DNA of 44,159 nt from Spirochaetota bacterium (lineage in GTDB: Bacteria > Spirochaetota > Spirochaetia > Treponematales > UBA12059), in assembly GCA_003247225.1 (NCBI GenBank), contig QKAK01000003.1, positions 1-44,159 on the forward strand, in the 5' to 3' direction. The position numbers and the translations under genes were made by a program. The notes under the pieces were generated by a model. That model was not told the origin of the DNA. It was given only the letters and a program-made list of their open reading frames with translations, and did not search any database. Position 1 is the stretch's first letter; the number at the start of each line of letters is the position of its first letter. Positions 10,815 through 15,291 of the stretch are shown one piece after another.

Positions 10815-12392
10815 ATGAAGAGGAACGGGCGATTCAAGGGGCGGTCGATCTGCGTGGTGGGGGACCTGTCGGCCGACGAGCAGCGCTACCTATACCGGAA
10901 GGCGCGGGAGCTGAAGGCCGAGCTGGGGGCGGGCGGCGACGCGGCGGGGTTCAGGATAGCCGATCCCGACTATTCGGCGTACCTCGTGTTCCTGGAGAAC
11001 TCGACCCGCACCAGGGAGAGCTTCCGCAACGCGGCGCTGTTCCACCGCGTGCGCGCGACGATGTTCGACGCGGCCAGCTCGAGCTTCGCCAAGAACGAGA
11101 GCCTGACGGACGCGATCAAGATGCTCGTCGGCTACGCGCCGGAGTCGTGCTTCGTCATACGCTCCAAGCTCGAGGGCGTCTGCGGCTGGCTCGCCGACTA
11201 CCTCGGGCCGTGGGCCGAGCGCTCCGGCTACGCGAGGCCGTCGTTCATCAACGCCGGCGACGGCAAGCACGAGCACCCGACCCAGGAATTCCTCGACGAG
11301 TTCAGCTTCCTCGAGCAGCTCGGCTGGAAGGACGAGCGCATCCACCTGGCCCTTATCGGCGACCTGCGCCACGGCCGCACGGTACACTCGAAGGCAGACG
11401 GGCTGCGGATCTTCAAGGACGTGGTAGTCGACCTGGTGGCCCCGCCCGAGCTGGCCATGCCGCCCGAGTACGTCGCTAGGATGCGGCGGAACGGTTTCGA
11501 GGTGCGCGAGTGGGGCTCGCTGGACGAGTACCTGGCCTCCGGGAAGGCCGCGGCCATCTGGTACTTCACCAGGCTGCAGCTCGAGCGCATGGGCGAGTCG
11601 GTGCTCGAGAAGGCGCCGGCCCTGCGCCGCGCCGTGACCTTCCGCAGGGACATGCTCGATCGCCTGCCCGACGGCGCCCGCTTCTACCATCCGTTGCCGC
11701 GCGACCGCCTGGCCCCGACCATCCCCGGCTTCCTCGACGACACGGCCCTGAACGCGTGGGACGCCCAGTCCGCCAACGGCTACTACACCAGGGCCGTGCA
11801 GATGGCGATGCTCTCGGGCGCGATCGGCGACGACTTCGAAGGCGAGGGGCCGGCGAGCCGGCCCGACGACGAGGCCTTCGTCGTCGAGGCCGCCATCAAT
11901 CCGAGGAGCAAGCCCGAGTACAAGGTGGGCATCAAGCCGGTCGAGTCGGGCCTGGTCATCGACCATATCGCCTCCGGCGAGCCGATCGAGGAGATATGGA
12001 ACCGCGTCGACAAGATACGGCGCGTGCTCGGCCTCAACCTGCGCTCGTCTCACGGCGTCTACCATACCAACTCCGGCGCCTACAAGGGCATCGTATCGGT
12101 GCCGGACCTCCTGAGCTTCGGCGAGAAGGAGCTGAAGCGGCTCGGCGCCGCGTCTCCGGGCTGCACGCTGAACCTCGTGCAGGACGGCGCCGTCGTCAGG
12201 AAGTACCGGCTCGGCATGCCGCCGCGCATCTACAACTTCGACGACATAGCCTGCCGCAACGAGAACTGCGTGTCGCACCCGTCGCACCAGGAGCACGTCG
12301 AGACCTCGTTCGAGCGCAGGCGCGGCGGCGACGCGTTCGTCTGCCGCTGGTGCGAGCGCGAGCACTCGTACTCGGAGATCTGGCGCGACTAG
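10815..12392 (+). CDS. pyrBI: Aspartate carbamoyltransferase, fused catalytic and regulatory chains (PyrB-PyrI)
   Basis: It condenses carbamoyl phosphate with aspartate, the first committed step of pyrimidine synthesis. Residues about 1-345 are the catalytic chain, with carbamoyl-phosphate loop NSTRTRESF, HPTQEFLDEF and HPLPRD. Residues about 350-525 are a regulatory chain (VEAAINPRSKPEYKVGIKPVESGLVIDHI, then a zinc site CRNENCVSHP...CRWCEREH). Such fusions are known from Thermotoga maritima and occur in treponemes. TATAGAAGGAGCGAGT provides a good Shine-Dalgarno at 10801-10810. No other pyr gene is adjacent. The regulatory domain suggests allosteric control by nucleotides. Confidence 0.95.
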   Translation: MKRNGRFKGRSICVVGDLSADEQRYLYRKARELKAELGAGGDAAGFRIADPDYSAYLVFLENSTRTRESFRNAALFHRVRATMFDAASSSFAKNESLTDAIKMLVGYAPESCFVIRSKLEGVCGWLADYLGPWAERSGYARPSFINAGDGKHEHPTQEFLDEFSFLEQLGWKDERIHLALIGDLRHGRTVHSKADGLRIFKDVVVDLVAPPELAMPPEYVARMRRNGFEVREWGSLDEYLASGKAAAIWYFTRLQLERMGESVLEKAPALRRAVTFRRDMLDRLPDGARFYHPLPRDRLAPTIPGFLDDTALNAWDAQSANGYYTRAVQMAMLSGAIGDDFEGEGPASRPDDEAFVVEAAINPRSKPEYKVGIKPVESGLVIDHIASGEPIEEIWNRVDKIRRVLGLNLRSSHGVYHTNSGAYKGIVSVPDLLSFGEKELKRLGAASPGCTLNLVQDGAVVRKYRLGMPPRIYNFDDIACRNENCVSHPSHQEHVETSFERRRGGDAFVCRWCEREHSYSEIWRD

Positions 12393-12473: not shown

Positions 12474-13568
12474 TCAGTACGCGTCCTCGTCGATATCGGA
12501 ACGGTCGGCTATCAGCCGCCTGAAGCGGGCTAGGCCGGCCTCGACGGCGGGCCGCTCGATGGACGGCAGCCGCCGCCCGAGCTCCGCTACGACGGCCTCG
12601 GCCGCCCGCTTCGACAGGTTGCGGTACACCGCGGCCCGCGACTCGTCGTCGAGCCCGGCGAGCGCCGCGACCAGCTCGCCCTCGTCGATCTCCCTGAGCG
12701 CCAGCTGCAGGATCACGTTGTTGCGCTTGACGTCGTCGAGGTAGCCGTCGAGCCGCTCCCGAGGCGGCGCCCCGTCCGCGGCGGCGCTCGCGCGGCGGGC
12801 CCGGGCCAGCCTGGAGACGATAGCGGCCGCCAGCGCGGCGATGGCGACGTACGCGGCGACGACGATCGGCAGCGAGGCCGCCGGATCCGCGGCCTGGCGC
12901 TTGATGACGATGCCGGCGTAGGCCCAGATTACGACGAGGCCCGAAGCGACGGCGCCCCGGGCGAGGACGAGGGCCATGCCGATCGCGGCGCCGGCGGCTA
13001 TGACGACGACCGTCCAGGAACGGTCGCTCAGGCCGAAGCCGTCCCATCCGTACCGGACGAGCAACGCGGTCGCGTTGGCTATCGTCGCGACGCATATCCA
13101 GCCGAGGTAGACGAGCACCGGCTCCCGCAGGAAGAATCGGCCGGCGCGGCCCGGGTATCGGCGCGAGCGGCCCGCCTCCATCATCGCGACCAGGGTGCCC
13201 AGGATCCCGAGCATGACGATCATCGACGCGGCGAGGAGCCGCCAGTGCCAGGCGAATATCCAGGCGACGTTGAGAGCGGCGTTCGCGCAGAACAGGATGC
13301 CGTCGACCGGCCGCCAGGCCCCGGCGCCCGGCTCGCCGAAGGCGGCGGCGATCGCGGCTATGACGTAGCCTAAGAGGAGGGCGTAGATCAGCCCCCAGAC
13401 GGCGAACGTCAGGCCGGCGGGGACGAACAGGTTCGGCAGCTCGTCCGACAGCTGGCCGGTATTGACGCCGTTAAGGGGCAGGGCGTTCGCCAGCCCGTTC
13501 ACGGCGATCATCGCGACGAGCATGACCGCGCTCGCTACGGCCCAGATCCTGGTCGACGGCTTGTCCAT
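12474..13568 (-). CDS. TspO-like membrane protein with C-terminal FliG-like domain
   Basis: Residues about 1-255 form a multi-span membrane domain resembling the tryptophan-rich sensory protein (TspO/MBR) superfamily: an N-terminal helix, then NLFVPAGLTFAVWGLIYALL and further hydrophobic spans. A short Ala-rich linker leads to about 95 soluble residues that resemble a FliG middle/C-terminal unit: LQLALREIDEGELVAALAG, then AAVYRNLSKRAAEAVVAELG. In FliG this kind of motif (FRNMSKRAAE) lies in the rotor-protein core. The fusion would place a flagellar-rotor-like module at the cytoplasmic face of a small-molecule-binding membrane protein. Start: ATG at 13568, with no strong Shine-Dalgarno. The membrane part is fairly sure; the FliG link is by motif only. 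Confidence 0.75.
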   Translation of the reverse strand: MDKPSTRIWAVASAVMLVAMIAVNGLANALPLNGVNTGQLSDELPNLFVPAGLTFAVWGLIYALLLGYVIAAIAAAFGEPGAGAWRPVDGILFCANAALNVAWIFAWHWRLLAASMIVMLGILGTLVAMMEAGRSRRYPGRAGRFFLREPVLVYLGWICVATIANATALLVRYGWDGFGLSDRSWTVVVIAAGAAIGMALVLARGAVASGLVVIWAYAGIVIKRQAADPAASLPIVVAAYVAIAALAAAIVSRLARARRASAAADGAPPRERLDGYLDDVKRNNVILQLALREIDEGELVAALAGLDDESRAAVYRNLSKRAAEAVVAELGRRLPSIERPAVEAGLARFRRLIADRSDIDEDAY

Positions 13569-13680: not shown

Positions 13681-14436
13681 CTAGGGAACCCGCCGTGACC
13701 CGGGCGGGCCGAGGCGCCGGCGCAGCTCGTACATGAGCACGCCCGCGGCGACCGAGACGTTGAGCGAGTCGACGTGGCCGTACTGCGGTATCGATAGCGC
13801 GCCGTCGCAGCGCTCCTTGAGCAGCCGCGAGACGCCGGAGCCCTCGGCGCCGAGCACCAGGGCCACGCGGTCGGGCAGGTCGGCCTCGGGCAGGGACTGG
13901 CCGCCCATGTCGGCCGCGTAGGTCCAGTAGCCGGCTTCCTTGAGCCGCTCGAGGGCGCGGGCCAGGTTCGGGACGCTGGCGGTCGGCACGTACGAGACCG
14001 CGCCCGCCGACGAGCGGGCTACCGTGTCGGTCTCCTTCGCGGCGCGGCGCTCCGGCGTCACGACGAGGTCGGCGGCGAACACGTCGGCCGAGCGCAGTAT
14101 GGCGCCGAGGTTGTGGGGATCCTCTATATGGTCGAGGACGATGACGAAGGACCGCTCCGGCGTTCCCGGACCGCGCCGGGCCTCGAGCCAGGCCTCGAGG
14201 CTCGGTTCGGCGGCGGCGGGCGCCTCGTCGAGCGCTATGGCCGCGCCGCGGTGGTCCGGCGCGACGGCGTCGAGCTCCTCGCGCCGCGCGGCCCTGCGGC
14301 TGACGCCGGCCTTGTCGGCCAGCTCGATGATCTTCTTGATGCGCGGCCCGGCCGCCGCGACGAGCAGGGTGGCGTTCCTCGCCTTGCCGGAGCGGACGAG
14401 CTCTTCCATGGCGTGAAAGCCGGTGATGTACGTCAT
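13681..14436 (-). CDS. rlmB: 23S rRNA 2'-O-ribose methyltransferase, RlmB-like (SpoU family)
   Basis: A 251-residue SPOUT methyltransferase that likely methylates the 2'-O of a 23S rRNA guanosine using SAM. The N-terminal substrate-binding domain opens TYITGFHAMEELVRSG, with a basic helix near KKIIELADKAG. The three SpoU motifs are present: DHIEDPHNLGAILRSAD, VALVLGAEGSGVSRLLKERCD, and IPQYGHVDSLNVSVAAGVLMYE. The trefoil knot is thus intact. A -10-like TAGTAT lies about 9 bp before the ATG and no Shine-Dalgarno is seen. RlmB versus TrmH is judged from the N-terminal extension. Confidence 0.9.
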   Translation of the reverse strand: MTYITGFHAMEELVRSGKARNATLLVAAAGPRIKKIIELADKAGVSRRAARREELDAVAPDHRGAAIALDEAPAAAEPSLEAWLEARRGPGTPERSFVIVLDHIEDPHNLGAILRSADVFAADLVVTPERRAAKETDTVARSSAGAVSYVPTASVPNLARALERLKEAGYWTYAADMGGQSLPEADLPDRVALVLGAEGSGVSRLLKERCDGALSIPQYGHVDSLNVSVAAGVLMYELRRRLGPPGSRRVP

Positions 14437-14469: not shown

Positions 14470-15291
14470 CTACGGCATCACCGCGAATTCCTGCACGATC
14501 TGGATCGCGTTCTCGACCGCCTCGACGCCGGATACCGCGCCGGCCGCGGCGCTGGCCGCGTCGATCGCGCTCTGGGTATTGGCGACGCCGTGCAGCGTGA
14601 CCCGCGAGCCCTTCACGTCGGCCTCGACGAAGTGGACCGGGATGCGCCTGGCGTATACGATCTCGGTGATGACGTCCTGGCCGAGCCGCAGCTCCGCCAT
14701 GCGCTTCATGCAGGCCTTCTCGTTCTCCTGGGAGACGATCAGCGCGCGCAGCTGGTCGATGATGCGGGCCACGGTGGCGGGATGCTCCCTGCCGGTGTTG
14801 ATAGTCAGGTCGTAGTAGACCGGATCCGTCCAGTTGGCGCCGAAGAAGTAGTCGTGGAAGCCGGCGCGGTCGCGGTCGTTCTGCTTGAGCAGCAGCTCGG
14901 CTCGCTTGTCGTCGCACTGGAAGCGGGTACGGACGCGCTGCAGCCTCACGTCGCGCGGCGCGACGAGCTTGACCGATATGCAGCCGGGGATGCCCGCGAA
15001 GATCGCGAAGCCGCCGCGGCCGGCTATGATGCAGTCGCCGGAGGCCGCCTCCTCGTACAGGACCGTCTTGAGGAAGTGCAGGTAGTCGTCGCGGTCCTGG
15101 GACAGCGACGCCCAGAAGCCGGGCTTCTTCTCGTCGTACTTGGCGCGGGTCTCGGAGGAGATGCCCTTCTCCGCCATGCGCGCCTCGATGTACTCCTTGT
15201 TGATAGCCTTGTAGCCCGTGATCGCGGCCAGCTCCTGGATCGTCTCGTCGCCGAGCGCCGCGAATTCCCTAGCTATGCTAATGACCGCCAT
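14470..15291 (-). CDS. Cytidylate-kinase-like protein fused to a BON domain
   Basis: Residues about 1-195 match the cytidylate kinase-like family (AVISIAREFAALGDETIQELAA, then IIAGRGGFAIFAGIPGCISVKLVAP and LLLKQNDRDRAGFHDYFFG). The N-terminal P-loop is degenerate (EFAALGDE instead of GxxGSGKS), so kinase activity on CMP is uncertain. Residues about 200-273 resemble a BON domain (VHFVEADVKGSRVTLHGVAN, GVEAVENAIQIV), a fold linked to phospholipid binding. Shine-Dalgarno AAGGAGG precedes the ATG. The promoter and leader carry three palindromes (see the adjacent entry). The combination suggests a sensor or regulatory nucleotide-binding protein rather than a housekeeping Cmk. Confidence 0.78.
   Translation of the reverse strand: MAVISIAREFAALGDETIQELAAITGYKAINKEYIEARMAEKGISSETRAKYDEKKPGFWASLSQDRDDYLHFLKTVLYEEAASGDCIIAGRGGFAIFAGIPGCISVKLVAPRDVRLQRVRTRFQCDDKRAELLLKQNDRDRAGFHDYFFGANWTDPVYYDLTINTGREHPATVARIIDQLRALIVSQENEKACMKRMAELRLGQDVITEIVYARRIPVHFVEADVKGSRVTLHGVANTQSAIDAASAAAGAVSGVEAVENAIQIVQEFAVMP

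Follow-up and report, generated by a model that had tools for sequence, protein, structure and literature searches.

A TspO-fold membrane protein that carries a FliG-like domain as its C-terminal tail is encoded in a single reading frame of the window, which denotes the whole stretch of 44,159 nucleotides analyzed here (Table 1). The tail belongs by its sequence to a branch of FliG-type domains apart from flagellar FliG, and most other members of this branch are encoded next to genes of ECF-type sigma factors. We consider it possible, if somewhat short of probable, that the fusion protein is a membrane-anchored form of a putative FliG-MotA regulatory module, in which the TspO part serves as the sensor. 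The preliminary description of this DNA had proposed the joining of a TspO-like domain to a FliG-like domain, which was confirmed by Pfam, PDB, and fold comparison. It had also stated that no TspO-FliG fusion is known to have been described, and no description was found in the literature searched here.

Table 1. Positions of the fusion gene, its parts, and its neighbors in the window.
Feature	Position	Strand	Basis or remark
Fusion CDS, 364 aa, both domains	12474..13568	(-)	ATG start at 13568; motifs quoted in the preliminary description present
TspO-fold part, residues 1-174, five transmembrane helices	13047..13568	(-)	AF2 and fold comparison
Three extra transmembrane helices, residues 182-266, then positively charged edge (RLARARR)	12771..13025	(-)	AF2 helices, hydropathy, charge count
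FliG_C-like domain, residues ~270-355, predicted cytoplasmic	12504..12761	(-)	Pfam PF01706, PDB FliG, Foldseek FliG, tree
FliG_C match core, residues 284-333 = profile 29-78 of 108, contains motif RNLSKRAAEAVVAE	12570..12719	(-)	Pfam
Aspartate carbamoyltransferase, catalytic and PyrI regulatory parts in one chain	10815..12392	(+)	Pfam; convergent with fusion gene
SpoU-family rRNA 2'-O-methyltransferase, upstream of fusion gene	13681..14436	(-)	Pfam

Reading Frame and Contig

The GC content at third positions is nearly equal in the two halves (TspO part, 0.93; FliG part, 0.94), which indicates that the whole frame looks coding. In the linker DNA, which was checked by eye, the sole in-frame ATG, GTG, or TTG codon is a GTG (the V of NNV) inside the FliG-like domain. 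Because the linker has no in-frame start outside this domain, a separate FliG-like product is unlikely.

A full-length match to the fusion protein was found only in the window's own genome; the same fusion, for which the preliminary description had pointed to other spirochaetes as the place to look, had no second case among 59 relatives and 394 genomes of the order. Approximately two dozen related genomes encode the TspO-like part without the tail, and no reading frame at the TspO-like homologue loci compared, except that of the window, joins the two. The nearest homologue, from a genus mate (G003), is 63% identical, and this protein ends about where the tail begins.

An assembly artefact, where the contig would join two unrelated pieces, was weighed, as the genome is a draft of 224 contigs and the fusion has no second copy for comparison. 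In G003, a beta-lactamase-family gene comes after the TspO-like gene, and beyond it lies a convergent aspartate carbamoyltransferase gene. The enzyme encoded beyond the tail in the window is 85% identical to this counterpart, so that both genomes have this gene downstream of the TspO-like one. Since this neighbor is common to G003, a misjoin would need two errors that keep the frame, and we regard an artefact as highly improbable.

On the far side of the methyltransferase gene, the window also contains a frame (14470-15291, (-)) that combines a cytidylate-kinase-like domain with a BON domain.

Membrane Part

The AF2 model of the fusion protein has a mean pLDDT of 83.6 over the whole chain, where the low values are mainly in the tail and those of the TspO-fold part are mostly above 85. 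In the VIA fold comparison, residues 5-174 matched BcTSPO (4ryi) with a Z of 14.8 and an rmsd of 3.6 over 147 of 151 residues. The seven best fold matches of the membrane part were all TSPO, with Z from 12.2 to 14.8 and alignments of up to 149 residues; the match after them was to an unrelated protein and had a Z of 9.2. As judged from the model, residues 1-174 clearly adopt the TspO fold.

The fusion protein shares this five-helix fold with the TspO/TSPO family (PF03073) and differs from it in several respects. The Pfam profile TspO_MBR matched neither the fusion protein nor the 24 homologues scanned alongside, and searches of the membrane part against Pfam, NCBIfam, and PDB sequences gave nothing useful, so that TspO is seen by fold comparison only. 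The fusion protein has the FliG tail in addition, and its three added helices are common to the wide family of TspO-like homologues without the tail, which were compared from spirochaetes, Bacteroidota, Clostridia, Myxococcota, and others.

Among the eight helices in all, four lysine or arginine residues are in the loop between helices 4 and 5, and six are around the end of helix 8. From the even number of helices and this distribution, considered under the positive-inside rule, both ends of the fusion protein, including the FliG-like tail, are predicted to be cytoplasmic.

The role of TspO in bacteria is still debated. TspO-like genes are not linked to sigma factors in general, as a sigma gene was nearby at only one of 45 loci (L054).

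Identity of the FliG-like Tail

FliG_C was the sole Pfam family above its cut-off in the fusion protein. The complete protein scored 32.2 bits and the isolated tail 35.3 bits (E = 1.5e-8), relative to the gathering cut-off of 23.3. The PDB sequence search matched the tail to solved FliG structures with E = 4.5e-7. In the Foldseek search with a tail-only model, the first 12 matches were all FliG with probabilities of ~0.85 to 1.0, where the E-values were weak and the pLDDT of the model was 61. The sequence of the tail (residues ~270-355) is genuinely FliG_C-like, beyond chance, and the FliG fold put forward in the preliminary description was recovered by both profile and structure comparison. 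The Pfam match spans just positions 29-78 of the 108 in the profile, which indicates that the final part of the FliG domain has diverged.

In a second fold comparison of the tail, MgtE with a Z of 8.9 tied with FliG at 8.5 (range 8.4-8.9), and at such Z values the tie may reflect a helical arrangement common to both. MgtE as the identity of the tail was rejected by sequence, where MgtE_N gave E = 0.08 compared to the value of FliG_C given above.

Non-Flagellar Clade of the Tail

The tree was calculated for 69 domains, consisting of 13 small domains, 26 flagellar FliG domains, and 30 other FliG-type domains. All 13 small domains, including that of the window, are on one side of a branch (support 99/96), apart from both flagellar FliG and the other FliG-type domains. 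The window domain groups with those of G016 and G009 (97/90; same family). The tree was built on few columns and contains several long branches, which makes the branching order within the clade uncertain. By sequence, the tail is a member of a non-flagellar branch of FliG-type domains, and it keeps the conserved core of the domain family of this clade.

The tail is closest to soluble proteins of G016 (208 aa) and G009; further soluble relatives are encoded in G399, G809, G207, G679, G804, G744, G724, and G736, and stand-alone small domains in G056 (95 aa) and G025 (87 aa). Most of the other clade members are soluble proteins of ~210 aa, in which the FliG_C-like domain is combined with a homologue of the cytoplasmic part of MotA. 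A profile of this C-terminal part, built from four clade proteins, none of which is MotA, matched solved MotA with E = 8e-13 and PomA with E = 1e-6. The match to MotA covers the first part of its cytoplasmic segment and, in addition, a stretch close to the chain end. In G717, the gene that comes after a FliG_C-like gene encodes a product of 126 aa, which shows this MotA-like pattern by eye and has no Pfam match. The fused clade proteins and this pair indicate that rotor-like and stator-like domains co-occur, either in one chain or in adjoining genes.

In G016 and G009, the TspO-like and FliG-like proteins are encoded by separate genes, so that the fusion can be taken as a "Rosetta stone" hint of their joint action. 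In G056, the gene of the stand-alone FliG-like domain is placed tail to tail with the TspO-like gene, with roughly a dozen bases between them.

FliG_C was also found in other contexts. A frame of 816 aa in G034 (C1, L098:275-2722, (-)) contains FliG_C and leucine-rich repeats, and stretches at its C-terminus resemble the cytoplasmic part of MotA (Pfam MotA_ExbB, E = 0.16). A frame of 144 aa in G041 (C15, L103:1656-2087, (-)) contains FliG_C with E = 1.9e-12, and its N-terminus is MazE/AbrB-like at a Pfam E of 4e-4, below the cut-off.

Link of the Relatives to Sigma Factors

An ECF-type sigma gene lies directly downstream of the FliG-MotA gene, on the same strand and abutting or overlapping it, in G016, G009, G399, G809, G207, G679, G804, and G736. 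With the near copies in G399 and G809 counted as one case, a sigma gene adjoins the FliG-MotA gene in seven of nine distinct cases, compared to none of 45 other FliG-paralogue loci. Sigma70_r2 and Sigma70_r4 were confirmed by Pfam in all four of the sigma factors tested; the sigma frame in G009 has a stop near its start and may begin late or be damaged. The two cases without a full sigma gene are G724, where only a region-4 fragment is present, and G744, where there is none.

Proteins with FliG_C and a MotA-like part also occur outside the clade, in G693, G213, G234, and G259, and no sigma gene adjoins them; the 45 comparison loci include those of G213, G234, and G259. This indicates that the link to sigma factors is a feature of the clade and not of every combination of FliG_C with a MotA-like part.

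The gene order by itself suggests that the soluble FliG-MotA relatives regulate their neighboring sigma factors, and these sigma-adjoining members of the clade suggest that pieces of the flagellar motor are reused for signaling. A FliG-like and a MotA-like part in one soluble protein beside an ECF-type sigma factor would be surprising to a specialist; the fusion protein itself is a new combination of known parts, seen once. No literature on FliG with ECF sigma factors was found in a search that ran without a main ECF classification paper.

Two further sets of frames were seen near this subject. In G056, a 424-aa frame (C649, L108:1735-3006, (-)) contains a sigma factor (Sigma70_r2 and r4) together with FliG_C. 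At the loci L155-L184 (genus g22 and others), there are many FliG_C frames, with several in each genome; they are 240-305 aa long and have a non-canonical FliG look, and none of these is near a sigma gene.

Proposed Role of the Fusion Protein

By its FliG-like domain, the fusion protein is in the same clade as the sigma-linked proteins of G016, G009, G399, G207, G679, G804, and G736. It differs from them in that it has an N-terminal membrane domain in addition and no MotA-like half, and in that its gene adjoins no sigma gene, the downstream neighbor being the convergent aspartate carbamoyltransferase gene.

In the proposed mechanism, the gene fusion would place a FliG_C-like interaction domain on the cytoplasmic side of an eight-helix TspO-fold protein. 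In the soluble relatives, the FliG-MotA protein would control its sigma factor, probably by binding the sigma factor or a partner, and the FliG-like and MotA-like halves would contact each other in the manner of rotor and stator. In the fusion protein, the tail would hold a cytoplasmic regulator at a sensor of the TspO type. By analogy with TspO, the membrane part may sense tetrapyrroles or the redox state, and a conformational change in it would alter the binding of the tail.

Membrane-bound anti-sigma factors of ECF sigma factors consist of one membrane sensor and one cytoplasmic binding domain. The fusion protein would resemble them in this respect if a sigma factor is kept at the membrane by the tail; it differs from them in that no known anti-sigma domain was recognized in it. 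Several observations stand against the reading as a regulator: the fusion is present in a single draft genome, it has no MotA-like half, the genome lacks any member of the sigma group linked to the clade, and the pLDDT of the tail model is ~60. There is no sigma factor within the window, and the search of its own genome for a member of that group gave a best score of 38 bits, relative to 359 for the self match and 89 for G009. A MotA-like domain was likewise not found in this genome besides true MotA.

The same absences are relevant to the explanation that the fusion is accidental, in which, through a deletion, the 5' part of a FliG-MotA regulator gene became attached to a TspO-like gene, and its remnant, the tail, is tolerated but functionless. 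The absence of the MotA-like half and of the sigma factor would fit a destroyed donor operon, the FliG-like domain has diverged in its last third, and one genome only has the fusion. However, the frame is open with the third-position GC of 0.94 across the whole tail, and the tail retains the conserved core of its family. We consider this account unlikely.

If the tail is instead part of a membrane-anchored regulator with TspO as the sensor, the fusion provides TspO with a candidate output domain, whose binding can be tested directly. A wider proposal is that spirochaetes turned the rotor-stator contact into a signaling device, where proteins with FliG_C-like and MotA-cytoplasmic-like parts regulate ECF-type sigma factors and the rotor-like half is here placed on a TspO sensor. 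This proposal is rather doubtful at present; if true, it would mean that the rotor-stator interface is reused for gene regulation.

Relation to the Flagellar Motor

The torque domain of FliG is known as a part of the flagellar motor. The tail resembles this C-terminal domain of flagellar FliG (PF01706) in the domain family, the predicted fold, and the NxSKRAA motif with R281. In contrast to flagellar FliG, the tail is attached to a membrane protein; the N-terminal and middle (FliG_M) domains of FliG are absent, and the rest of the fusion protein is the TspO-fold membrane domain.

The tail was aligned to Salmonella FliG, where the two have equal lengths over 246-295. In E. coli FliG, R281, D288, and D289 are of primary importance and K264 and R297 of secondary importance, and R281 pairs with MotA E98 and D289 with MotA R90 (PMC6079164). 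In the tail, R281 is kept as R321 and D289 is changed to E329, whereas K264 and D288 are lost (A304 and A328, respectively) and R297 has no clear counterpart.

The preliminary description had envisaged that a flagellar switch-like or signaling module is tethered to a membrane sensor. The second part remains plausible, i.e., a signaling module on a membrane sensor. The switch-like role is not borne out, considering the separate clade of the tail, the absence of the N-terminal and middle domains, and the loss of K264 and D288.

A related explanation is that the tail is directed at the motor, where the anchored FliG-like domain would bind the cytoplasmic part of MotA or FliM and modulate the motor as a brake or a stator decoy. 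Both residues that pair with MotA in FliG have the counterparts R321 and E329, and the genome encodes true FliG, a second FliG-like protein, a FliM-FliG fusion, and MotA, the last being the only MotA-type partner present. The three other positions listed above do not agree with this explanation, and the clade of the tail is outside flagellar FliG, with its nearest relatives adjoining sigma factors. A motor-directed tail is quite improbable to us.

The FliM-FliG fusion of this genome (G000, C126, L110:326-2344, (+)) is a 673-aa frame that contains FliM (Pfam, 2e-43), the FliG middle part, and the FliG C-terminal part. A 717-aa frame in G003 (L111) resembles it by eye, and FliG_C-matching frames of similar length are present in other genomes of the order.
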